This document shows, one piece after another, positions 2,906-26,669 of a DNA stretch of 64,000 bases (positions within the stretch are counted from its first letter, which is position 1; each line of letters begins with the position of its first letter). A program made the position numbers and the translations under genes. A model generated the notes under the pieces. It was not told the origin of the DNA. It made no database searches and saw only the letters and a program-made list of their open reading frames with translations. This DNA comes from Nostoc sp. FACHB-152 (GTDB lineage: Bacteria; Cyanobacteriota; Cyanobacteriia; Cyanobacteriales; Nostocaceae), in the NCBI RefSeq assembly GCF_014697475.1, contig NZ_JACJRV010000002.1, forward strand, positions 247,515 through 311,514, in the 5' to 3' direction.

Positions 2906-4066
2906 TTAGGATATGGACGCAGCTTTTGGCTGACGCTGCTGCTTAAGGAATTCTTCATTAGCGACAATCTCGCCAAAGGGACTTAAGACGTGTTGTTCCT
3001 CGACTTTGGGCAAGTTCTCTAACGGTAAACGCCCAAATAATAATTCAGCAACGCGATAGGCTTCTTCTAAATGCGGATAGCCGGAAAGAATAAAAGTATC
3101 AATACCCAAGTCTGCATATTCCAACATTCTGGCGGCGACTGTATCGGGATCGCCTACTAAAGCTGTACCTGCACCACCCCGGACTAATCCCACACCAGCC
3201 CACAAATTCGGACTAATTTCTAAAGCTTCCCGACTGCCTTTGTGTAACTGACTCATGCGGCGTTGCCCTTCAGAATCCATCCTCGCATAAACTGTTTGGG
3301 CTTTGGAAATGGCTTCATCATCTACATAGCGAATCAATTGATTGGCTGCGTCCCAAGCTTCACTCTCGGTTTCGCGCACAATTACGTGCAGACGAATGCC
3401 AAACCGCAAACTTCTACCTTCAATCTTTGCAAGTCTGCGAACTGCGGCAATCTTCTCGGCAACTTGCGCGGGAGGTTCACCCCAAGTTAAGTAAACATCG
3501 ACGTGCTTGGCGGCGATTTTTTGGGCAATAGCCGAGGAACCACCAAACCACAATGGCGGATAGGGTTTCTGCACAGGTGGAAACAGAATTTTGCCATCTT
3601 GAATATCTAGGTAGTCACCTTTGAGGTTAACTGTTTCGCTATTGACAAGCGATCGCCATACCGTCAAAAATTCATCTGTTAATTCATAACGCGCATCATG
3701 GCTCAAATGCAAGCCATCTCCGGCCGCTTCCACAGGATCGCCACCAGTCACAACATTAATCAACAACCTGCCCCCAGAAAGGCGGTCAAAAGTCGCCGCC
3801 ATTCTTGCGGCTAAAGTTGGCGACATCAACCCCGGACGTATCGCCACTAAAAAACGCATCCGTTGGGTTAAAGATACTAAAGTTGATGCCACAACCCAGG
3901 CATCTTCGCAAGACTTACCCGTTGGTAACAAAGCCCCTGTATAACCCAGGTCATCCACTGCCTGTGCAATTTGTCGAAAGTATGGAAAGCTAACAGACCT
4001 GCCGCCTGTGGCTGTTCCTAAGTAACGCCCATCGCCGTGGGTAGGGATGAACCATAGTAGCTGCAT
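2906..4066 (-). CDS. ssuD: FMNH2-dependent alkanesulfonate monooxygenase
   Basis: This 386-residue protein has the bacterial luciferase-like TIM-barrel fold. It starts with [17 protein letters not shown], typical of SsuD, and contains [21 protein letters not shown]-type, NVVTGGDP and [10 protein letters not shown] segments seen across the SsuD family. It cleaves the C-S bond of alkanesulfonates using FMNH2 and O2, giving an aldehyde and sulfite. It is first in the run ssuD, beta-CA-like, ssuE, and the reductase partner is two genes downstream. The C-terminal tail after about residue 360 is longer than the roughly 381-residue E. coli enzyme by only a few residues. The 133-nt upstream gap to the cyclase-family gene is room for its own promoter, but no regulator site was recognised. 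Confidence 0.95.
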
Positions 4067-4199
4067 GAATCCTATCCTTATTAAAAGCGGTATCTCTATC
4101 GAATTACCGTATTTTATCTTGGATAAGAGTATTGCATATCCTACTTAGGTAAGCAAGAGATTTTTGAAAATAGGGGCTAGGGGTTAGGAATTATAAAAG

Positions 4200-4901
4200 T
4201 TAAGGCACAAAAGCCAACACGCCCACAGGAGAACCAGAACCACCACGTAGTCTTAGAGGTGCGATCGCTAATGTAGTACCCTTGGGTGGTAGTTGGTCTA
4301 AATTGGAGAGATTTTCTAGGACAATACCAGACTGTGCCAATACCAGACGGTTAGTAGCAAAACTACTATCATGTCCAGGGTCTACTCCATGAGTATCAAT
4401 TCCCACGCCGACAATTTGCCGTTGGTTGAGTAAAAACTGCGTAGCATCGCTGCTAAACCCTGGAAAGTGCATCATCCCTTGACTATCCTGGTTAAAGAAT
4501 GCGCGTCTATCTCCCCACTTGTGTTGCCAGCCAGTGTAAAGTAACACTAGACTACCGCTGGCGATTTCGCCATGTTCTGCTTCCCAAGCCAAAATATCGG
4601 CAATAGTTAAAGCGTAATCAGAATTTTTAGCTGCGGCTATGCAGATATCGATAACAACCGTCGGCACAATCAACGATTCAGCAGAGTATTTGTCTATACT
4701 TGCACCATCAGCGAAAAAACTATTGGCGGCATTAATATGAGTCGCGCTATGTTCCCCCAAAGAAAAACGCCGCAAATAATAACCATCATCAGGAATTTCG
4801 GCAACAGTCGTAAATTCTACTGGCGGGTCGCCTGGCCATTGAGGGATATTTCTGTCAATGACATGGCTAAGGTGGATAACTCGTGAGTAGGTAATGTGCA
4901 T
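4200..4901 (-). CDS. Cyclase-family (kynurenine-formamidase-like) metal hydrolase
   Basis: A 233-residue member of the putative cyclase family (PF04199 type). Family landmarks are HLSHVIDRNIPQWPGDPP near the N terminus, GEHSATHINAANSFF where the usual metal motif HxGTHxDxPxHF is expected, and GVDTHGVDPGHDSSF-like residues further on. The metal motif is degenerate here: G is replaced by S-A and the Asp by Asn, so hydrolase activity is uncertain. It lies upstream of ssuD on the same strand but 133 nt away, so membership of that operon is doubtful. The upstream flank carries the short repeat TGGTCATTTG/TGGTCAATGG common in spacers here. The substrate cannot be predicted. Confidence 0.8.
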   Translation of the reverse strand: MHITYSRVIHLSHVIDRNIPQWPGDPPVEFTTVAEIPDDGYYLRRFSLGEHSATHINAANSFFADGASIDKYSAESLIVPTVVIDICIAAAKNSDYALTIADILAWEAEHGEIASGSLVLLYTGWQHKWGDRRAFFNQDSQGMMHFPGFSSDATQFLLNQRQIVGVGIDTHGVDPGHDSSFATNRLVLAQSGIVLENLSNLDQLPPKGTTLAIAPLRLRGGSGSPVGVLAFVP

Positions 4902-16633: not shown

Positions 16634-17683
16634 CTAGTGACCGTTTTGAATAAAAGACTCAACTTTAGCAACTGACTCTTTGCTACCAATAATCAGAGGT
16701 GTGCGCTGGTGTAATTTTTTCGGCACGACATCTAAGATATCTACTAATCCTGTGGTAGCGCGACCGCCTGCTTGTTCAATTAAAAACGCTAGAGGAGCAG
16801 ATTCATATAACAAGCGTAATTTACCTTCTGGCTTTTGAATTGTGCCTGGATAAAGGAACACACCACCTTGAACTAAAATTCTATGAATATCACTTACCAT
16901 CGCGCCGCTATAACGAGCTGTGTAACCCTCTGTACGGTGAACATAGCGAACATATTCCCGAATTGACTCTTCCCACTGCCAGAAATTACCTTCATTGACA
17001 CTATAAACAGAACCGTGGTTAGGAATGCGGATATTTTCTTCGGTCAGAATAAACTCACCTAGGCTAGGATCGAGAACAAAAGAATGAACCCCTTTACCGA
17101 TACTATAAACCAGCATGGTGCTAGGCCCATACAGGATGTATCCGGCAGCAATTTGCTTGCGGCCACTAGCTAATAAATCGGTAGCTAAACCATCCGTATC
17201 AGTACCTTCTTGTTGGCGAATGGCAAAAATTGAACCCAAACTGAGATTAGTATCAGTATTAGAAGAACCATCTATTGGGTCATAAAGCAAGGTATAACGA
17301 CCTATAGGGCAGTTTTCAGGGATATAATAGGGGTTTTCCATCTCTTCGGAAGCAAGGCGGCAAACTAAGCCACTTTGCTTAAACACCGAGATAAATACAT
17401 CGTTGGCATAGACATCCATCTTTTTGACGGACTCGCCTTGAACATTCACATCCCCAGTAAAACCGAGAACGCCTTCCATTAAACCTGCGTGGCTAAGACG
17501 ACGGGCAATTAATTTACCTGCTAAGGCAATGCGATTCATCAGTGCGCTTAAGTCTTGGGCATCAGGCCCAAAGCTCTGAAGTTGCTGGAGTACGTGACGA
17601 GATAAGGTTGTACAATCGCGATCTAGAGCTTTGTCCGTATTATGCTCGATTGACAACTCCAGAGATTCTGGCGCTTGAGCCAT
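16634..17683 (-). CDS. fbp: Class I fructose-1,6-bisphosphatase
   Basis: A 349-residue class I FBPase converting fructose 1,6-bisphosphate to fructose 6-phosphate. The metal and substrate motifs are clear: [15 protein letters not shown] at about 77-91, SEEME at 112-116, and [20 protein letters not shown] at 134-153. It is the first gene of the fbp-tal-zwf-opcA group. In heterocysts, where the Calvin cycle is off, this arrangement is thought to recycle triose phosphates back into the oxidative pathway. I looked for a canonical NtcA box (GTA-N8-TAC) upstream and did not find a convincing one. Confidence 0.96.
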
Positions 17684-18026
17684 GTTTGTTTCTCCCTAGT
17701 GATTAGCTAAATAGTTGGGTTGAAAAAATAGTCCGTAGCAACTGATAGCTGCTGCTTCTATCTTAGAAAGGTAATTAGATAACCTGGATATGACTTTAGA
17801 TAAACTAAAGAAATGGATAAATTTTGGCTGAGTTTTCCAAAGCAAAAAAGTAAAGTTGCGTCTTGAAGCGTAGACGCACATAGGACTTACATTATGTCCG
17901 GCTAATCAGTTGTAATTTGATACATCTGTGCAGAAATAGTACAACTTTCTCCCCTACCCCCTTGCAGTCTTAATGACAAGTCTTTCACCGGACACGATAT
18001 TACGCACCCAAATCACACCCATGCGG
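17684..18026. other. Spacer upstream of fbp
   Basis: No convincing gene. A 61-codon frame at 17696-17881 lacks family features. TGTCCGG (17895-17901) and CCGGACA (17988-17994) form an imperfectly conserved inverted repeat around 86 nt. The fbp promoter must lie here, but no boxes can be assigned with confidence. Confidence 0.5.
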
Positions 18027-18074
18027 AAAAAACCGACTAGCCATGAGATCAGTTTTTTACTCAAAACCAGTCGG
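18027..18074 (-). terminator. Rho-independent terminator after the RRM gene
   Basis: On the minus strand CCGACT (from 18074 down) pairs with AGTCGG (18038-18033) and is followed by TTTTTT. It lies about 135 nt past the RRM stop, implying a long 3' UTR. Confidence 0.75.
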
Positions 18075-18209
18075 GTGTCGTTATTATTGCTTAATACTTA
18101 CAGCAGTTTTTCACTAATTAAGCCTGCTGCCATGAGTTCTAGTTAACTCCAGCAAATAAAGTTCTTGCGTAACTAGAAGACAATTTGTTATTATTAGCAT
18201 CCAGCTTGT

Positions 18210-18509
18210 TTAAATTTCTTGTTTTTTCGCCCAGTCACCTCGTCGGTTATCATCTCTTCGGTTGTCTTCTCGCGGTTTGGCTTTGTTCACTCTAAGTTGA
18301 CGGCCCATCCATTCTGCACCATCTAACTCAGTAATAGCTGCATCTTCTTGAGCGTCTTCTTCCATTTCCACAAAAGCAAAGCCTCGCATCCGCCCTGTTT
18401 CACGATCGGTAGGCAAGACTACTCTTTTGACCTCGCCGTAGTCTGCAAAGACTGCTTTTAAATCTGCTTCAGTAGCACGGTAGGAGAGATTACCAACGTA
18501 AATAGTCAT
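18210..18509 (-). CDS. RRM-type RNA-binding protein (cyanobacterial Rbp family)
   Basis: A 99-residue protein with one RNA recognition motif: RNP2 IYVGNL at residues 3-8 and RNP1 RGFAFVEM at 42-49. An Arg/Asp-rich tail (about 79-95) follows. The start was set at the ATG at 18509 because MTIYVGNLSY is the conserved N terminus; a GTG three codons upstream is the alternative. Members of this family bind single-stranded RNA, and several are cold-inducible in Anabaena, with regulation through a long 5' UTR. Here about 460 nt of gene-free sequence precede the start. No partner gene is in the same transcript. Confidence 0.92.
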   Translation of the reverse strand: MTIYVGNLSYRATEADLKAVFADYGEVKRVVLPTDRETGRMRGFAFVEMEEDAQEDAAITELDGAEWMGRQLRVNKAKPREDNRRDDNRRGDWAKKQEI

Positions 18510-18880
18510 GTGGATCACGTAATTTTCAACAAACAGCGATTAGTTCAGCGAGAAAACAGATCTAAACAAACTGCAAATCTTGCATCGTCGCTTCTGATTC
18601 ATTGATGGCGAATGTTGTAGGGCAGCAGTCGTGGTGCTGGCATAACTTCAACTAAACTGTCCATGCGGCTGAACTTACGCTTACGCTCATATGATAACTG
18701 ATTGTGACATTTTTCAAAGTATGGGATATTACAATCCTCAATAACATAAAATAAGCCAATCTTATATATTTTTTTAAATAGAGATTTTATGTTAAGATAC
18801 TTTGTTAATTTAGATTATTTTTAATAGGATTTAAGATTAAAAATAGCTATTTATAAATACTGGTATTTTCTAGAAAACAC
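18510..18880. other. Long leader region upstream of the RRM gene
   Basis: No gene is seen. The stretch becomes strongly AT-rich at about 18735-18880. It is consistent with promoter plus long 5' UTR of the RRM gene, as described for cyanobacterial rbp genes. I cannot define a structure by eye. Confidence 0.45.
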
Positions 18881-18931
18881 AAAAAAATTACCTGCAACTC
18901 CCCTTAACCTAAGAGAAAAGAAGTTGCAGGT
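18881..18931 (-). terminator. Terminator of the 73-residue gene
   Basis: ACCTGCAACT (18890-18899) and AGTTGCAGGT (18922-18931) form a perfect 10-bp stem. On the minus strand it is followed by AATTTTTTT. It lies 37 nt past the stop of the gene at 18968. Confidence 0.9.
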
Positions 18932-18967
18932 TTTAATTAGCAATGAGAATTGAAATTAGCAATAAAT

Positions 18968-19189
18968 TTACTCAATGGAAATGCTTTGTGGGCCAGTAGC
19001 TCTACCGTTAGCACCTCCAGTTGTTGTAGTGGTGGTAAGGCTAGTCACGCCTCTCTGTTGATCTAGCCAACTTTTGACGGGATCGTCTTTAAGGTTGAGT
19101 CGCAGAACACCAGAGGCAAAGCCACCTAAGAATGAGGCTGGGTGCTGAATGAATTCTTTAAAGATGGGTGATAATTCATCAAGAAACAT
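18968..19189 (-). CDS. Small conserved-looking hypothetical protein
   Basis: A 73-residue protein, MFLDELSPIFKEFIQHPASF followed by a Gly-rich helix, LKDDPVKSWLDQQRG and a low-complexity Thr tail (TTTTTT) ending in QSISIE. A good Shine-Dalgarno (AGGAG, 7 nt before the ATG) and a strong terminator just past the stop argue that it is real and monocistronic. The N-terminal half could form an amphipathic helix with the hydrophobic segment FLGGFASGVLRL. I do not recognise the family and assign no function. Confidence 0.7.
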   Translation of the reverse strand: MFLDELSPIFKEFIQHPASFLGGFASGVLRLNLKDDPVKSWLDQQRGVTSLTTTTTTGGANGRATGPQSISIE

Positions 19190-19321
19190 TAAAAATCTCC
19201 TGGCACTGCCATAAAAATTATTACTTTTTTATCAATCGTAACGTAGGGAAGGGGAATAGGGAGTAGGCAGTAGGGAATAGGGTAATTTCTACTACTCCCA
19301 CTCACCACCCCCACTCCCTAA

Positions 19322-20395
19322 TTAAGAAGTTGGTTGTTGATCTGGGAACATACACTTATCAGAATCGCAACCACTGGGGCCGGCTTCTGTTAACTCGCCG
19401 GAATCGTAGCGACTGAGTACAGCACAGAAATCATCAGTTTTGCGTCGCGCTAGCACTTCTTGAGATAAACGCTCATAAGTTGCTTTGTCTATTGGCTCAA
19501 ATGGCAAGCGGGGAAATGATTGTAAATCGTCAAATCGTGCTAACAGTGCGGCGGAAATATAGCCCTCATCATTTTGGATGACTTCGTAAATTCGCGCTCC
19601 CAAAGGTTCAACTTCATCAGCACGTAGTTCTAGGGTAGCTGATGTGTTGTGGGTGACGTAATGACGCTGAACTTGCATAACAAAATCAAATTGAGCTAAG
19701 ACAGAAAACTTAGAAACATCAATTTGATCAGCACCAGGTAAATCAGCCCAAGGTACGGCGACAGGAATTTCTACTAACCATTCACTGACGCGGGGATCGA
19801 AGGGATCATTTAATAAATTTCCCTGTTCATCCTTGTCAGATTGGGAGGGAATGACATGATACCCATAGTCAATACAAGCTAAGGCTACTGGGTCATTTTT
19901 GCGGAAAGTGATCCGGCGAATAAATCTTTGAGCTTTGGGTGGATGCCAACCAGAACTAGCACCAGATAACAGAGATTTAGTTCCACTGGGTTGGACTGTA
20001 GTACAACGATTAGGACGTTTGAGATGATGGCGATCGCAATAATCCCACACTGCCTTATGTACTACTTCTTTCCAAAAGCTGAGATATTTTTCTTCTTGGT
20101 GCTTAAATGCTAACCCTTGGGGAGTTGCAGGTCTACCTTCTGCCCACCAGCGCAACCAGTCCACACCAAAAGCATGGACAAAGAAATCAAATAAACCAGT
20201 AAAAGAAACTCCCACAATTGGGTCTAATTCTCGACTGTATTGATAGCGCGGTTCTAAAAATTTATGATTCAAAAGTGTGGCTACAGATAACGCCCCAGCA
20301 GTGAAAGCTTCCTCTTGTTCTTTATAGTTAAATGGGTCAATTTGATTGAGATGAATCTCTGAAAGATTACAGTGAAAATTGCTACCAATAATTTC
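19322..20395 (-). CDS. nrdJ: B12-dependent ribonucleotide reductase, exon 2 (C-terminal part)
   Basis: Exon 2 of nrdJ encodes 357 residues starting EIIGSNFHCNLSEIHLNQ. A frame with an ATG at 20398 exists, but that ATG is the last triplet of the intron and not a genuine start. Joining to exon 1 restores NPCG|EIIGSNFHC, the invariant active-site motif. Visible features are the second reducible Cys in NFHC, PSGTKSLLSGASSGWHPP, the phosphate-binding TTVQPSGTKS region, and a C-terminal CDSDKC pair that should shuttle electrons from thioredoxin. The spliced protein would be 768 residues, the size of cyanobacterial class II enzymes. It reduces ribonucleotides using adenosylcobalamin. Confidence 0.93.
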   Translation of the reverse strand, partial: EIIGSNFHCNLSEIHLNQIDPFNYKEQEEAFTAGALSVATLLNHKFLEPRYQYSRELDPIVGVSFTGLFDFFVHAFGVDWLRWWAEGRPATPQGLAFKHQEEKYLSFWKEVVHKAVWDYCDRHHLKRPNRCTTVQPSGTKSLLSGASSGWHPPKAQRFIRRITFRKNDPVALACIDYGYHVIPSQSDKDEQGNLLNDPFDPRVSEWLVEIPVAVPWADLPGADQIDVSKFSVLAQFDFVMQVQRHYVTHNTSATLELRADEVEPLGARIYEVIQNDEGYISAALLARFDDLQSFPRLPFEPIDKATYERLSQEVLARRKTDDFCAVLSRYDSGELTEAGPSGCDSDKCMFPDQQPTS

Positions 20396-20683
20396 CATTT
20401 TTGTTAACCCAGAGGCTCTTTATCCTCTAGTTCTACGAGTTCTTTATTCCTCGTAGATCCGACTATATTTTCTACTAAAAATTTAGTAGCCGGAGACTCG
20501 TGGAGCCGTTTTTAGAACGGAGGTAAAACCTAGATTATATTCTTTTTAAACCACGGGCTTAAAAAGTTTCACTCTCTAGTCTGTACAGTATCTAAGGCTT
20601 TTTAGTTCCTTTGATTACCTCGGTATTCCCAATCGCAGGGTTCACCGATTTTCCCCGGTGTTTAACGTGAGGCAAAATTACTT
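20396..20683 (-). ncRNA. Group I self-splicing intron in nrdJ (288 nt, no ORF)
   Basis: It interrupts nrdJ in phase 0 just after the active-site NPCG codons. The preceding exon ends in U and the intron ends in G, the group I rule. P1: exon CGUGUGGU pairs with intron GCCUCACG, including the U-G wobble at the splice site and one U-U mismatch. P10: intron AAUUUU, directly before that strand, pairs with 3' exon GAAAUU. P4 (CGGU/ACCG) encloses a P5 hairpin (CCC/GGG), and AATACCGAGGTAA resembles the Q element. P7 is CAGACTA with AATATAGTC (S element). P8 is CTTTTTAA/TTTAAAAAG. P9 is CTACGAG/CTCGTAG, followed by an AGAGG/CCTCT hairpin. No homing endonuclease is present. Confidence 0.92.
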
Positions 20684-21916
20684 ACCACACGGATTTAAAC
20701 CAAAACGAGCTAAACGATGTTCTAATTCATTAGCATCAATTTCTGGATAGCGTTGTTGTAACCAATCTTTAGCTTTTCCTTGCTCGTAAGCTTGTAAAAA
20801 CTCTTTTTTCAATGCTTGGGTAGAAAGCAAATCAATGTTAGCTCTCGCTACAGCTTCCCCAGCCCATTGAATCGCACCTTCGCCACTATAATATTGTTTC
20901 TGAACAGCTGCGATCGATTCTTCTAAGGTTGGCTTGCGGTGAAATACTCTGGTATGATTCGCCATCCGTAAAGCATCACGCTCAGGATCAATGCGCCAGT
21001 TACCGTTTTCATCTTGCTGCCAGAGGTTATCTTTGGCTGTAGCTCCTAATTGATCTTCAGCAGTAAACTGACGCATACCAGCTGATCGCCGGATGTTACC
21101 TGCAACAATTGTTACAGCAGCTTGATCAATTAATAAGCAGCATTCAACAGAATTTAATTGTCTGCCTAAAGCTTTGTTTAAGATGTCAGCACAACGCTGA
21201 TAAAGTCCCGGTAATTTCACAGGATTGGCAACACCGCCAAAACCGTTAAGGGTTTCGCCAGCTTGACGGACATCGCTCAGATCAATAAATACTTCTACTT
21301 CACCAGTAAATCTTTCATCCGTGGAAAGCTCTAAGAGGGTTTGATAAGATGCAACCCAACCTTCCCGGCTATCGCCAACATGAATGGTAACGCGGTTGCC
21401 TTCTATATCGGTTTGTGTAAATTCACGACGTAAGTTTTTCGGAGTGCTGCCGATTTCGCCTTGTACAGTGACATTGAGGTGATTACGGATGGCAGGCAGT
21501 TGATCAATATACTGTGGTTCGATGATGGTTCCTGTGCCGCAGCCCATCATGGCCAAGTCCATCATCAAACCGAAGGCTTTCCAGTCTTGGAGATTGGTGG
21601 AGGTGCAATTATATCCGCCGGAGAAATTCTTGGGTTTGGTGATCCAATCTGTACCTCCTACCCACAACCAACGGCCACTAGGTAAAGCTTTGAGTTGGCG
21701 TTGTGTCTTTTCTAGAAGGGCTACTTCTTCAGGGCTAAGTTTACCTAATTCGATTAAGCCTTGGATGGTGCGATCGCACACCTCATCCCAAGATTCTCTC
21801 AGACCTGCCGCAGTTCGGCGGCTATAAGTCCTAAAAAATACAGGATTCGCTGCTGGCGCGGTTTCGGGAAACGTTGCACCCTGACGTTTTTTTTCAAGCT
21901 CTCGAACCATAATCAA
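20684..21916 (-). CDS. nrdJ: B12-dependent ribonucleotide reductase, exon 1 (N-terminal part)
   Basis: Exon 1 encodes 411 residues and ends at the codon for Gly411 of the NPCGE motif; unspliced reading would add one Lys and hit TAA at 20678-20680. It contains the N-terminal disulfide-partner region SGGYNCTSTNLQDWKAFG, MGCGTGT and, at the very end, the catalytic thiyl-radical cysteine (Cys410). The intron therefore sits between the radical Cys and its neighbouring redox Cys, so both are lost unless splicing occurs. The product has the ATG at 21916 and is monocistronic. The reductase needs adenosylcobalamin, consistent with cobB in the window. Assignment as class II (NrdJ) follows from NPCG plus the C-terminal Cys pair in exon 2. 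Confidence 0.93.
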
Positions 21917-22030
21917 GTCTTGTTGGTTTTGAACAGATTACGACTATACGCCAAGTAGGTTGAGGATAAAAGATTGCAAAATTTTCCACTTTGCGCTAGG
22001 TCTGTAGCTGTACCAATTGCAACGCACACA

Positions 22031-22609
22031 ATGTCTCTTGCTCCTTGGCGAGGTGCGATCGCTCGCGCTCTGCATCGCAACCGTAGTCTTGTATACGCTC
22101 GTTACCTACAATTGGCTACAGTCCGGGCAGATAATCGTCCTGCTAATCGAACTGTTGTCTTTCGTGACTTTCTCAAAGATACCAATCAGCTAAAATTTAT
22201 CACTGATACGCGTAGCGATAAAATTGACCAAATAAAAACCCAACATTGGGCGGAAGCCTGCTGGTATTTCCCCAACTCGCGCGAACAGTTTCGTATTGCA
22301 GGCCGCTTGACTTTGGTAGATAGTGATAACGATGTACTACAATCAGCCCGCCTCACTACTTGGCAAGAATTAAGTGATGCGGCTAGGTTACAATTTGCTT
22401 GGCCTCATCCTGGTAAACCTAGGGACGCAGCACCAGAAGCTTTTACACCACCAGCACCCGACCCTTTGCAACCAGTATCAAACTTTTGCTTACTATTACT
22501 TGATCCCGTGCAGGTTGATCATTTAGAGTTGCGGGGCGAACCACAAAATAGAAGCATTTATCAGCTTGATGAAAATCAACAATGGTTTTGTGAGGAGGTT
22601 AATCCTTAA
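22031..22609 (+). CDS. FMN-binding split-barrel protein (pyridoxamine-phosphate-oxidase-like, Alr4036 type)
   Basis: A 192-residue split-barrel flavoprotein-fold protein. From MSLAPWRGAIARALHRNRSL it follows the Alr4036 (PF12766-like) pattern, with LATVRADNRPANRTVVFRDF, FITDTRSDKIDQI and EACWYFPNSREQFRIAGRL. The C terminus has the PNPOx-like DHLELRGEPQNRSIYQLD. The start was set at the ATG at 22031; the frame runs further upstream but only from an ATT. These proteins probably bind FMN; the substrate is unknown, and true PdxH activity should not be assumed. It is divergent from nrdJ. Confidence 0.85.
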   Translation: MSLAPWRGAIARALHRNRSLVYARYLQLATVRADNRPANRTVVFRDFLKDTNQLKFITDTRSDKIDQIKTQHWAEACWYFPNSREQFRIAGRLTLVDSDNDVLQSARLTTWQELSDAARLQFAWPHPGKPRDAAPEAFTPPAPDPLQPVSNFCLLLLDPVQVDHLELRGEPQNRSIYQLDENQQWFCEEVNP

Positions 22610-22780
22610 GAAGGGGCTAGGGAAGCAGAGGAGCAGGGGGGCAGGGGAGCTTTTTAGTTAACTCTAGAATTGACATAAACCACTATTGTAAGTTTTCTCT
22701 GCCAACTTCTGTGTATTGAAAAACACAGGACTTTTCCAGTGATACAAAAAATCATGTTTTAAAGCAAGGGGTTTAGGCGT

Positions 22781-23545
22781 TTAAATACCTGCACCATCAA
22801 GAAATTCTTGTATAGCTTTATCTCTGAGGCTACATAAAGGAGCTTCTTGTTTTGGTTCTGGTTCATTGTCAGCAAAAGCACCAACTAAAACAGGTGTTTT
22901 CGCAGCAGGTTGTCGGCTTTGTATAGTTTGAATTTGTTGTTCTAATGCTTCAATGCGATCGACTAAAGCGCGAATGACTTCGGCTTCTGAGTCAGGTAAG
23001 TTGTTGTGTTCAAGAGGCGCAACCCTGACTCCAGAACGATAGACAATCCGCCCAGGAATGCCCACAACAGTACAATCAGAAGGCACATCTCTGAGAACGA
23101 CTGACCCCGCGCCAATGCGGACGTTATTACCAATGTGAATATTGCCCAGTACCTTTGCACCAGCACCGACTACAACATTTTCACCGACTGTAGGGTGACG
23201 TTTACCGCTTTGTTTACCAGTACCCCCTAAAGTCACACCTTGATAAATCAAAGCATAATCCCCAACGATCGCAGTTTCACCAATAACTACACCCATCCCG
23301 TGGTCAATAAATACGCCTTGCCCAATTGTTGCGCCTGGGTGAATTTCAATACCCGTCAAAAACCGCGATAGGTGGGAAATGAAACGGGGAATAAAAGGCA
23401 AACCAAGATGATGTAGCCAGTGCGCCAGCCGATGAAAAAGCAAGGCTTGCAAACCAGGGTAACAAACCAATACTTCTAACCAGTTACGGGCGGCTGGGTC
23501 ACGTTCAAAGATAATGCGGAAATCAGCACGTAGTGTAGATAGCAC
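22781..23545 (-). CDS. cysE: Serine O-acetyltransferase
   Basis: A 254-residue enzyme making O-acetylserine from serine and acetyl-CoA, the first step of cysteine synthesis. The N-terminal helical domain ([20 protein letters not shown]) is followed by the left-handed beta-helix of hexapeptide repeats: [54 protein letters not shown]. The catalytic His is in IDHG, and the C-terminal tail (about 190-254) is longer than in the minimal enzyme. It appears monocistronic. Together with the ssu operon this is the window's second sulfur-assimilation locus, but no shared regulation is visible. Confidence 0.95.
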
Positions 23546-23719
23546 GAAATAGTACCCTCGGAAAGCAAAACGAGTACCATACCATATTATCTTTTTCAGT
23601 GCTATTTAGATTTTCTTGCTTTATGTCTCAAGAAACAAGGCAGGAGGCAGGAGGGAAAAGGGTTTGAGTAGTTTGTTTCCTTCGTCGTGGGCTTGTGCGG
23701 TTGTTCGTAATTCACCCGT

Positions 23720-24211
23720 TTATTTCTTGTAAACTCTAATTAACGGTGTCAGCTTTGGTTGATTGGGATTAGTTAGGTCTAATTTATAAGCTGTGTTTAA
23801 TATATCTTCTGTTTTCTTGCCTTTGACTGTAATTATAAAATTTGCTGTTTGAAGGTTCTCCCTTCCAACTTTTTCAATCACCTTGTCTTGAATAATCGAC
23901 ACATTTTTTAATCTTTCTGGTAGCCGTTTATTGGGCTTCCAGAGGCATAAAACATTTGTAGAGTTGGGAAATTTTAGTAGTTGGAGAGTGTATTTTTGAT
24001 TATTAACTTTAAAATGAGACGACTGTAAGATTACAGCTTGATTTTGTGGTAGGATTTTGCGAAATACTTCTGGCGTTCTTTCATGACGGTTGCAGTTTCT
24101 ATCGATAATTGGTTCTCCAGCAAATGCAGGCTTTAATAAGATTGATACACTTGCAGTGTAGAAACTGAAACTTGTTAAAGTAAAAGCAATAAATTTAGAG
24201 TAATTAAGCAT
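23720..24211 (-). CDS. Secreted hypothetical protein
   Basis: About 163 residues from the ATG at 24211; a frame nine codons longer opens at 24238, but the shorter start gives a clean signal peptide (MLNYSKFIAFTLTSF, cleaved near KPAFAGEP). The mature part has two Cys (RNCNRH and VLCLWKP) that could form a disulfide in the periplasm, and no recognised domain. It lies between cysE and recJ on the same strand, with 40-170 nt gaps. No function is proposed. Confidence 0.6.
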   Translation of the reverse strand: MLNYSKFIAFTLTSFSFYTASVSILLKPAFAGEPIIDRNCNRHERTPEVFRKILPQNQAVILQSSHFKVNNQKYTLQLLKFPNSTNVLCLWKPNKRLPERLKNVSIIQDKVIEKVGRENLQTANFIITVKGKKTEDILNTAYKLDLTNPNQPKLTPLIRVYKK

Positions 24212-24278
24212 AACTTTAATTATTAGTATTGCCATCAACGACGAAACGACAATTTAGGTTGTTCCTCAAACGTAATAA

Positions 24279-26615
24279 CTAATAGTCATTAACCATAGCG
24301 ACAACAGTAGATAAAGGTACTTCGGCAAAGTACTGTTGTTGAAATTGTTCTTCGCTGATGGTGGCTAAAAATTGGGCAATGGCTGTATCAGCATCAGTTT
24401 GAGAAACATTGCTGGTATTGCTGGTGATTTGTAAAGAACGGTCGTTTCTGATAACTATGAATCCACAATATTTTAAAGCTTTGATGCCTAAAAGTAAGGA
24501 GCGATCGCTTATCTTTAGTTTGTCTAAAAGTTGGCTGCGGGTAACTGGTTGGTTTGTGCGACTAAAATATTTAGCAATTCCTACAAGAGTGACCCAAATT
24601 TCTTGTGGTGGTTGGTGGATAGGTTTAGACCAAGCAAGGACTAATTGTTGATTATTATAGAGCGTTCTTTGCCACCAAGCACGCAAATTATCCCAACTAG
24701 TGGGGCATTCTTCTAAGATGAATGTGGGAGTGGGGAGTGGCGAGTAGGGAGTGGGTAAATGGCGATAATCTAAGATTTGTGCTGAGTGTTGTTTTTGGAG
24801 TTCTAATTCCTCACTAGGACGGACGGCAATTAATCGAATTTCGTAGCGTTTTTTGAAACTGTTGTAATCTAATTCTGCAATGCAGTCACATCGACCAGGA
24901 GGTAATTCATCTTTGTAATGACCCCACCACACACCAGGAAAAGGGCTTCTCGTTGATTCATCCCGAATATCAAATTCGGCTTTAATATACTGTACCTTTT
25001 TACCTTGCCAATCTTGTTGATTGCGATGCCAAGCATTTTCAAACCAACAGTTTTGAATGATTAATTTTGGTACAGGATTTCCCATACCACATGGTTCTAA
25101 TAGTTTGAGTTCTAAAAATAATTCTTTGCCTAAATCTGCTACAGTTACTTTTAAATCTGCTTGGACTGTGGGCATTAAATTTGTACTACCCAAAGATTGC
25201 CGCAATTGCTGATTTATTGCCTGTGTAAATAAGGGTATATTTTCCACTGGTAAACTCAAACCAGCAGCAAAGGGATGCCCACCAAAGCGATGCAATAAAT
25301 ATGCTTGGTCTTTGACTAATTGGTATAAATCAACAGAATTAATAGAACGGGCGGAACCTCTGGCTAGGGGAGTTGGGAGTTGGGAGTTGGGAGTTGGGAG
25401 TGTTTCTAAGCCGCCATTCCCTTCTGTACTTAGTAGGATAGTCGGTCTGCCTGTTTCTTGGGCAACTTGTCCTGCGACTAGACCTAAAACACCTGCTGGC
25501 CACTGAGAATCTTCCAGAACGATGACGCTGGTGGTGGATAAGTCTAGTTGATTCAGCTTTTGGGCGACTTGGGTTTGTACATCTTTTTGTAAAGACTTGC
25601 GGCGGGTGTTGGCGAGTTCTGTTGCTTCTGCTAGTTCATTGCAACGTTTAGTATCCCGACTAGTTAACAATTCAACACAAAAACTTGCATCGCCTTGAAT
25701 CCGGCTGACGGCGTTAATGCGTGGCCCTAAACCGAAAGAAATATCTGTGGGGCGATCGCCACTTTTTTGGCACAATTCTAATAATCGTCCTACCCCTGGC
25801 CTTCTTCTGGCTGATGCTGGTTGTTTAAAATCTGCTTGCAGTCGTTGAATTCCCAACTGTGCCAAATATCGACAATCACCTTTTAACTGCACTAAATCAG
25901 CAATTAACCCAACTGCAACTAAATCTAATAAATTCTCCAATGGGTCTTTGGGAATATGCGGCAGAGTTTGATAAAGTGCTTCTACTAATTTGTAGGCAAC
26001 CGCTACCCCAGAAAGGTTAAATAAAGGATGTTCGCCCTGTAAATAGCGCGGATTAATAATTGCTGTAACTGGTGGGCGTTGGGCTGGTAATGTGTGATGA
26101 TCTGTGACTATCACATCTATACCTAATTGTTTGGCATAAATAATTTCATCAATATTTGTGCTACCCGTGTCACAAGTAACTATTAATGTAAAGCCTTGTT
26201 TTGCTAAATTATCTATTCCTTGATTATTGAGTCCGTGAGATTCTCTGAGGCGGTTAGGAATGTAATAAGTTAACCCAACATTTTGCTGAAAAAACTGCCC
26301 TAAACCATCCCACAAAACAGCACTAGAAGTAATACCATCAGCATCAAAATCTCCCCAAATTGCCACTTTTTCACCAGCATTGCGCGCTTGTTGTAGTCTT
26401 TTTACTGCCAAGTGCATTTCTTCTCCAAATTCAAAAGGAGAAGCTGGTTGATAAGTTTGATAGTTAACAAAAGCGGCTAATTGTTGAGTATCTTTAATTC
26501 CCCGTTGCCATAATAATTGCGCTGCATAAATACCACTTGATGCAGGCGTATACTCTTTTACTGCTTGAATAAACCAATCTGGTGGTTGTTCAGTTGTTGC
26601 AAGAATCCATTGCAT
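24279..26615 (-). CDS. recJ: Single-stranded-DNA-specific exonuclease RecJ
   Basis: About 778 residues from ATG 26615. A frame with ATG 26630 exists, but that ATG is inside a TGACCAATGAC spacer repeat. RecJ degrades 5' ends of single-stranded DNA in recombination and mismatch repair. DHH-family motifs are clear: VAIWGDFDADGITS (motif I), TCDTGSTN, VTDHHTLP (motif III) and the DHHA1 segment HRFGGHPFAAGLSLP. The C-terminal extension (after about 560) is typical of cyanobacterial RecJ. Two heptamer-repeat tracts lie within the coding sequence at about residues 405-417 and 620-632, encoding LPTPNSQLPTP and LPTPYSPLPTP. They keep the frame and fall between conserved motifs. Confidence 0.94.
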   Translation of the reverse strand: MQWILATTEQPPDWFIQAVKEYTPASSGIYAAQLLWQRGIKDTQQLAAFVNYQTYQPASPFEFGEEMHLAVKRLQQARNAGEKVAIWGDFDADGITSSAVLWDGLGQFFQQNVGLTYYIPNRLRESHGLNNQGIDNLAKQGFTLIVTCDTGSTNIDEIIYAKQLGIDVIVTDHHTLPAQRPPVTAIINPRYLQGEHPLFNLSGVAVAYKLVEALYQTLPHIPKDPLENLLDLVAVGLIADLVQLKGDCRYLAQLGIQRLQADFKQPASARRRPGVGRLLELCQKSGDRPTDISFGLGPRINAVSRIQGDASFCVELLTSRDTKRCNELAEATELANTRRKSLQKDVQTQVAQKLNQLDLSTTSVIVLEDSQWPAGVLGLVAGQVAQETGRPTILLSTEGNGGLETLPTPNSQLPTPLARGSARSINSVDLYQLVKDQAYLLHRFGGHPFAAGLSLPVENIPLFTQAINQQLRQSLGSTNLMPTVQADLKVTVADLGKELFLELKLLEPCGMGNPVPKLIIQNCWFENAWHRNQQDWQGKKVQYIKAEFDIRDESTRSPFPGVWWGHYKDELPPGRCDCIAELDYNSFKKRYEIRLIAVRPSEELELQKQHSAQILDYRHLPTPYSPLPTPTFILEECPTSWDNLRAWWQRTLYNNQQLVLAWSKPIHQPPQEIWVTLVGIAKYFSRTNQPVTRSQLLDKLKISDRSLLLGIKALKYCGFIVIRNDRSLQITSNTSNVSQTDADTAIAQFLATISEEQFQQQYFAEVPLSTVVAMVNDY
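24724..24755. repeat. STRR-type heptamer repeat inside recJ (C-terminal part)
   Basis: GGGAGTG/GCGAGTA/GGGAGTG units in the recJ frame, read on the minus strand as LPTPYSPLPTP. Confidence 0.75.
25368..25402. repeat. Five tandem GGGAGTT heptamers inside recJ
   Basis: Four exact copies of GGGAGTT and a fifth GGGAGTG (35 bp). The number of units is not a multiple of three, so neighbouring bases must have been gained or lost with it to keep the frame. It encodes LPTPNSQLPTP. Confidence 0.88.
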
Positions 26616-26669
26616 TTTGTCATTGGTCATTGGTCATTGGTTATTTGCTCACTCTCTAACCTCTAGCCC

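Follow-up and report, generated by a model that had tools for sequence, protein, structure and literature searches.

By reading frame alone, the nrdJ gene of Nostoc sp. FACHB-152 reads as two fragments: on the minus strand of the window (the whole 64,000-nt stretch of DNA that was analyzed, to which all coordinates refer unless a contig or another locus is named), a 288-nt insert at 20683..20396 separates the codons for NPCG from those for EIIGSN. The question raised by this locus is whether the gene is broken, expressed in pieces, or made whole by removal of the insert from its RNA. The first-pass annotation, made from the DNA letters, had proposed the last of these, with a compact group I intron as the agent and, as a consequence, dependence of a B12-dependent reductase on RNA catalysis. 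The length it gave for the insert is exact to the base, and there is no ORF inside, the longest stop-to-stop frame being 35 aa; a U precedes the 5' site and a G is the last base of the insert, both as described. The 5' exon ends with ...AAT CCG TGT GGT at 20684 and the 3' exon begins with GAA ATT ATT GGT at 20395, and the sequence that splicing was expected to restore, NPCGEIIGSNFHC, can be read directly from these flanks. The gene and its surroundings, which are ordinary (window 16634-26630), are as follows.

16634-17683 (−), fructose bisphosphatase
18210-18518 (−), RRM protein
19322..20395 (−), nrdJ exon 2 (EIIGSNFHC... to the stop); TIGR02505 positions 379-723, E = 5e-118
20684..21910 (−), nrdJ exon 1, from ATG 21910, 409 codons, ending ...GLNPCG; TIGR02505 positions 16-378, E = 8e-104
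21916 (−), possible alternative nrdJ start (TTG), upstream of ATG 21910
21974-22609 (+), pyridoxamine phosphate oxidase-like
22781-23545 (−), hexapeptide transferase, probably serine acetyltransferase
24279-26630 (−), RecJ-like

Because the two exons align to neighboring segments of the RTPR profile TIGR02505, on which they are contiguous, we assign them to a single gene for an adenosylcobalamin (B12)-dependent, class II ribonucleotide reductase (RNR). Both exons are full length and conserved, and the spliced protein, counted from ATG 21910, would comprise 766 aa. In sequence searches, the only PDB relative common to the two exons was 1L1L, presumably the Lactobacillus leichmannii enzyme, with alignments that do not reach the NPCGE motif; the cysteine of this motif is the one that we take to be the thiyl-radical cysteine.

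The genome comprises 8.6 Mb, with a listed completeness of 100% and contamination of 1.28%. It gave no match to the models of class I alpha (PF02867), class I beta (PF00268), or class III (PF13597) enzymes, each of which matches between 6 and 11 of the 14 genomes used as controls, and TIGR02505 matched in two places only, namely, the two nrdJ exons. PF02867 is blind to the class II enzyme itself, and the class II search was made with TIGR02505 as its single model. Since no other RNR was found with the four family models, dNTP synthesis in this organism appears to need splicing of nrdJ, in line with the dependence on RNA catalysis proposed at the outset, and one spliced 766-aa enzyme is a better model of the locus than two fragments.

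Anatomy of the insert

The structure of the insert was drawn by hand from the window RNA and counted on an alignment of 26 homologous introns with their exon ends. Its elements are listed below in the order of the transcript; the in-frame UAA and the P7.1/P7.2 helices go beyond what had been annotated earlier.

20396..20683 (−), predicted group I intron (288 nt, ORF-less, subgroup IA type)
20678..20680 (−), in-frame stop UAA, the second intron codon (intron positions 4-6)
20674..20680 (−), P10 strand UAAUUUU (intron 4-10); partner, 3' exon GAAAUUA (20395..20389)
20666..20673 (−), P1 guide sequence GCCUCACG (intron 11-18); partner, 5' exon CGUGUGGU (20691..20684)
20652..20658 (−), P3 5' strand CCGGGGA; partner, 20490..20496; two-sided changes in 5 of 7 pairs
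20620..20648 (−), P4-P5 (P4, 20648..20643 with 20625..20620; P5, 20640..20638 with 20630..20628); two-sided changes in 6 of 9 pairs
20587..20619 (−), P6 and P6a, from the alignment count and RNAalifold
20577..20581 (−), P7 5' strand GACUA
20503..20576 (−), P7.1 and P7.2, alignment columns 143-147 and 153-157 with their partners
20576..20572 with 20533..20532 and 20505..20503 (−), P7.1, interrupted by an extra hairpin
20566..20542 (−), P7.2
20490..20496 (−), P3 3' strand UCUCCGG
20472..20489 (−), P8 hairpin; two-sided changes in 7 of 7 pairs of the main stem
20461..20465 (−), P7 3' strand UAGUC
20432..20457 (−), P9 hairpin
20409..20430 (−), P9.1 hairpin CUAGAGG/CCUCUGG, from RNAalifold
20396 (−), omega G, the last intron base, which is a G in all 73 loci, the 3' boundary being set by protein alignment

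Across the 26 homologues, 95.3% of the 1701 cells of the drawn structure are paired, compared with 80.6% in shuffles, and two-sided changes occur in 37 of the 66 drawn pairs; none of 500 shuffles reached any of the five measures, and sliding the partner strand by 1-3 columns lowered pairing to 37-44%. Pairing is nearly complete in the P3/P7 pseudoknot core (99.5% of cells in P3 and 100% in P7), and both helices show two-sided changes, with GCGUA/UACGC taking the place of GACUA/UAGUC in the P7 of relatives. Three of the 66 pairs are not supported: the innermost of P6 (2/26), the outermost of P9 (11/26), and the innermost, eighth pair of P8 (41%), which is misaligned. The helices named in the first-pass annotation are all present, and most are backed by compensatory changes, P1 being so nearly invariant that covariation speaks neither for nor against it. 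The splice-site U-G wobble of P1 is kept in all 26 aligned introns; the window P1 contains one U x U mismatch at position -4. RNAalifold, run blind to the drawn structure, recovered the same P1, P3, P4-P6, P8, P9, and P9.1 and added P7.1 and P7.2, the pseudoknotted P7 being beyond what this program can draw. Folding of the intron RNA together with 12 nt of each exon gave a z score of -4.65, and none of 100 shuffles was as stable.

The earlier call of a P10 was also sound, with seven pairs formed in the window between intron 4-10 and the 3' exon. The seven positions are paired in 73, 73, 72, 65, 65, 65, and 64 of 73 loci, with UAAUUUU facing GAAAUUA in 26 loci and UGAUUUU facing GAAAUCA in 29, whereas three loci mix the partners. 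In a shuffle test over 15 distinct combinations (76 pairs vs. 72.9 expected), 377 of 10,000 shuffles scored as high. P10 pairs slightly better than chance, and its covariation is weak.

The covariance search gave a divided answer. At the gathering score of 50, the Rfam model Intron_gpI (RF00028) matched nothing in the whole window, and default Rfam thresholds consequently miss the intron, but a focused search of 481 nt gave a match to positions 1-253 with 30.9 bits (E = 4e-6). The gathering score is a curators' cut-off rather than a defining biological feature, and none of 20 intron-bearing loci tried reached it; the miss at default thresholds was, accordingly, rejected as a refutation. Because of the covariation and the Rfam match, we predict with high confidence that the insert is a self-splicing group I intron. 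It is taken as a member of subgroup IA by virtue of P7.1/P7.2, helices lying between the P7 5' strand and the P3 3' strand that presumably mark this subgroup, with no finer placement in IA1 or IA2 implied.

Distribution and movement of the intron

Of 388 genomes of the order, 86 contain DNA similar to the intron by BLAST, and 93 are matched by a covariance model of its 5' part (R1), 79 of them at 67 bits or more; in the same 388 genomes, TIGR02505 has some match in 345 and a match over its cut-off in 212. Run on 386 genomes sampled from the phylum, some of them shared with the order sample, R1 gave 31 matches, of which only two, both weak (G453 and G553), lie outside the order. All 25 strong R1 matches that were fetched (a subset of the strong matches, 12 of them from genomes already among L001-L030) begin 0-4 nt from the end of exon 1, and none of eight weaker ones lies in nrdJ. 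A genome of the same genus (G324) yielded no intron match with either BLAST or R1.

That the insertion site might be shared had been suggested beforehand, and it is: among 80 nrdJ loci chosen by exon-2 similarity, 43 carry an intron at the bond NPCG|E, 22 are empty, and 15 contain an intein no more than eight codons away. Eight of these inteins are at NP|C (L094 has one also at FH|C) and seven at FH|C; they were called from open frames that begin with Cys and in which the next Cys is preceded by His-Asn or Gly-Asn, and of three examples searched against Pfam, LAGLIDADG_3 exceeded its cut-off in all and Intein_splicing in two. Three further loci (L021, L023, and L024) combine the intron with an insert at FH|C, 24 nt past the intron end, in which an intein ORF was read in L021 and L023. 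Related nrdJ genes with an intron, an intein, or nothing at one catalytic motif amount to a natural experiment.

Overall, 73 of 110 loci have the intron at this bond, although 30 of the 110 were picked for intron presence and the sample is biased for a tree of intron states. On a quick exon tree from which the junction codons were left out, the intron state changes 21 times, with 18 of the changes forced by starred branches, whereas shuffled labels need 31 changes on average and none of 500 shuffles needed as few as 21; the distribution among filamentous cyanobacteria, as mapped on this tree, is therefore clustered yet patchy. The intron of Scytonema hyalinum (L100) is 90% identical to that of the window over ungapped columns, the exons being only 75% alike, and the nearest exon relatives of L100 in the comparison (86-87%) have introns that are 66-68% alike. 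Across 1891 pairs, intron and exon identities correlate (Spearman 0.46), which implies that much of the descent is vertical or local. Vertical inheritance alone was nevertheless rejected in view of the at least 18 state changes and the mismatch in L100, the same two observations from which we conclude, by sequence comparison, that the nrdJ intron moves.

The probable route of spread is past homing. Of the 73 intron-bearing loci, six have an endonuclease-like ORF inside the intron. In L022, L025, L026, L076, and L092, the sister introns, which occupy the same bond, share one ORF, for which the best indication (Pfam, L022) is PF05367, phage endonuclease I (E = 1e-4, 22.2 bits vs. a cut-off of 29.1), with NUMOD3 also under its cut-off, such that it may tentatively be described as PD-(D/E)XK-like; a remnant in L081 seemingly derives from it. 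The sister intron of L084 encodes instead a GIY-YIG ORF (E = 2e-10). The window intron, by contrast, holds no homing endonuclease gene in an ORF search, and BLAST found no second copy of it in the genome. A phage or plasmid origin was considered and rejected, with partial matches only in 10 phage records, one plasmid match of 38 bases, and no source found. The streptococcal and gut phage records (H5-H8) are 77-80% identical over 62-80 core bases (intron 45-124), and most of the window intron is unaligned in the phage records.

Introns of this kind are already known from Nostoc, and that of the window is a further instance. Excerpts of three papers (PMC12702839, PMC1995217, and PMC3984707) mention a group I intron in the RIR gene of Nostoc punctiforme (Meng 2007) and group I introns in "some cyanobacterial nrdE genes," and, according to a passage of PMC2795772, over 100 group I introns in RNR genes have been curated in RNRdb. 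The window intron resembles that of N. punctiforme PCC 73102 in being a group I intron of a cyanobacterial ribonucleotide reductase gene. The PCC 73102 intron reportedly carries an insertion sequence, to go by the title of Meng, Zhang and Liu 2007, J Bacteriol 189:2150, and in this respect the two, likened by description, differ, the window intron having no ORF. In another strain, N. punctiforme NIES-2108 (L045), there is an intron at exactly the bond NPCG|E, albeit of a sequence type other than that of the window, which has the P7 GACUA. Among the matches listed, the open-licence literature contained no survey of the nrdJ site across cyanobacteria.

Codon footprint, early stop, and competing explanations

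Presence of the intron is reflected in the host gene. Pro-Cys-Gly is encoded by CCG TGT GGT in all 73 intron-bearing loci (68 distinct), and the 5' exon CCGTGTGGT occurs in 73 of 73 intron loci, or 68 of 68 distinct ones, compared with 6 of 29 loci without intron, a set from which eight loci with the NP|C intein were left out. The choice is an unusual one, CCG making up only 6-9% of the Pro codons in the nrdJ exons. The Asn codon before this stretch and the codons after it vary, so that the constraint ends where P1 ends. In 16 tree-independent pairs, the difference runs, on average, the same way in 13, the opposite way in none, and is equal in three (median p 0.0002 in a sign test). The pattern is explained by base pairing to the guide sequence, although endonuclease target choice or short co-conversion may also be a source of the footprint. 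The Cys codon is always TGT, even though T and C would be alike mismatched with the guide U.

The second regularity concerns the start of the intron. In the window, AAG UAA follows straight after GGU, and an unspliced message would encode a truncated product, as the first-pass annotation had it. Of the 73 loci, 72 have their first in-frame stop at the second or third intron codon, with TAA, TGA, and TAG all used, whereas shuffling of the P1 loops predicts a stop within the first four codons in 24 loci and at most 40 (2000 trials, kinship ignored). The family hence has, beside a measurable codon footprint matching the guide sequence, a near-universal early stop codon. An excerpt of PMC3984707 presents in-frame intron stops as letting ribosomes stall so that the intron folds, and the UAA of the window may likewise keep ribosomes out of the folding core. 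The coupling of translation and group I splicing in chromosomal bacterial genes becomes testable in this family.

Taken together with the anatomy, these features suggest the following course of events. Once the transcript is made and the intron folds, the guide sequence would pair with the last bases of the 5' exon to form P1, and a guanosine held in P7, which we take to be the guanosine-binding helix, would attack the bond that follows the U of GGU, the Gly codon. The 5' exon thus released would then attack behind the terminal G, while P10 keeps GAAAUUA in position, and exon joining would restore NPCG-EIIGSN. Ribosomes meeting the stop codon in the P1 loop of an unspliced message would make the N-terminal half only. 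The window intron, itself ORF-less, would be related to introns that dispersed over the nrdJ genes of cyanobacteria, with homing as the probable means, and would persist because splicing removes it from an essential gene.

How firmly the locus points to splicing depends on what else could account for it. Inteins and a group II intron are present elsewhere in the nrdJ genes of relatives, so another splicing element might be considered, but the insert begins with AAGUAA and not GUGYG, gives no group II match whereas L108 does elsewhere in nrdJ, lacks an open frame, and has a P3-P7 pseudoknot with covariation; we regard a group II intron or intein as practically negligible. Hardly more credible is a decayed, non-splicing remnant in a dying nrdJ copy, a notion to which the missing ORF and the single U x U mismatch in P1 lend some color, because the core is intact, the exons are conserved, and the genome, for which a completeness of 100% is listed, yielded no other RNR. 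Somewhat greater, but still very low, is the probability that nrdJ functions as a gene in pieces, with no splicing, exon 2 translated on its own from the ATG formed by the last intron bases, and the two chains assembling into a working reductase. Exon 2 with the last intron codon does form an ATG-initiated ORF of 358 aa, and a phage ribonucleotide reductase divided by an endonuclease gene reportedly remains functional, to judge by the title of Friedrich 2007 (cited in PMC2814812). The break would, however, adjoin the motif cysteine; the U-G at the splice site and the helices of the core are conserved; and the exon codons track intron presence. The ATG as a start codon was itself rejected, the final intron triplet being ATG in only 22 of 70 introns (CTG in 27, AAG in 11, TTG in 9, and TAG in 1).

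A different proposition accepts the group I intron and makes of it a regulated switch, in which NrdJ and the dNTP supply are adjusted to the state of the cell through splicing that depends on GTP and is perhaps coupled to translation. The position of nrdJ as the sole RNR found in the genome and the early in-frame stop in three different forms would suit such a role, but 22 of the 80 relatives are empty at the bond and 15 have nearby inteins, from which we deduce that there is no common regulatory need. The early stop may, moreover, be a by-product of P10 pairing with the Ile codons, although it is retained in seven of the eight loci in which P10 is down to three contiguous pairs (the exception is L011). 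We consider the switch unlikely. The self-splicing group IA intron accordingly remains our preferred reading, and to it we add, tentatively and in the awareness that the combination is somewhat less probable than its negation, a wider proposal: P1 fixes the rare CCG together with TGT and GGT, selection keeps the early stop so that ribosomes halt before the ribozyme folds, and the sole RNR found depends on a translation-gated ribozyme at a stretch contested by inteins and introns.

Other insertions in nrdJ and elsewhere

A second group I-like intron was observed in the same genome outside the window (G000:C136, about 71764-72814; L147, about 3265-4315). It interrupts the RNA-splicing ligase gene rtcB at LGGG|NHFIE, with PF01139 on either side, contains a 273-aa LAGLIDADG ORF (PF14528, E = 2e-7), and has, by eye, a U-G pair in P1. 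R1 gives it 44 bits and RF00028 does not list it; as a candidate second copy of the nrdJ type, this match was rejected, being a different intron in a different gene. Seven more regions (L148-L151 and L153-L155) resemble the rtcB intron by eye, L150 showing no such ORF, and no title on a group I intron in rtcB was present among the literature matches listed.

Additional insertions were seen in nrdJ itself. Three loci (L036 2378-3598, L042 2378-3598, and L109 2099-3274) have in-frame inserts of 392-407 aa after exon-1 residue 277, which start with Cys, end with His-Asn in two of three cases, and probably represent another intein site. Inserts of ~2.4-2.5 kb occur after exon-1 residues 126 and 87 (L061 370-2860, L069 711-3145, L047 227-2740, and L108 360-2858); those of L061, L069, and L047 start with GUGYG and have ORFs that by eye resemble reverse transcriptases, and for L108 the Rfam search called a group II intron. 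Elsewhere in the home genome, RF00028 has a strong match of 86 bits (G000:C112:35277-35508; L111), around which ARAGORN reported no tRNA and which is presumably the tRNA-Leu intron known from cyanobacteria. Two weak matches of the intron model, in L141 (from 1501) and L152 (minus strand, about 2358-2471), have tRNA-like 3' halves (GGTCGGTGGTTCAAATCC) downstream and therefore resemble group I introns that interrupt tRNA genes.
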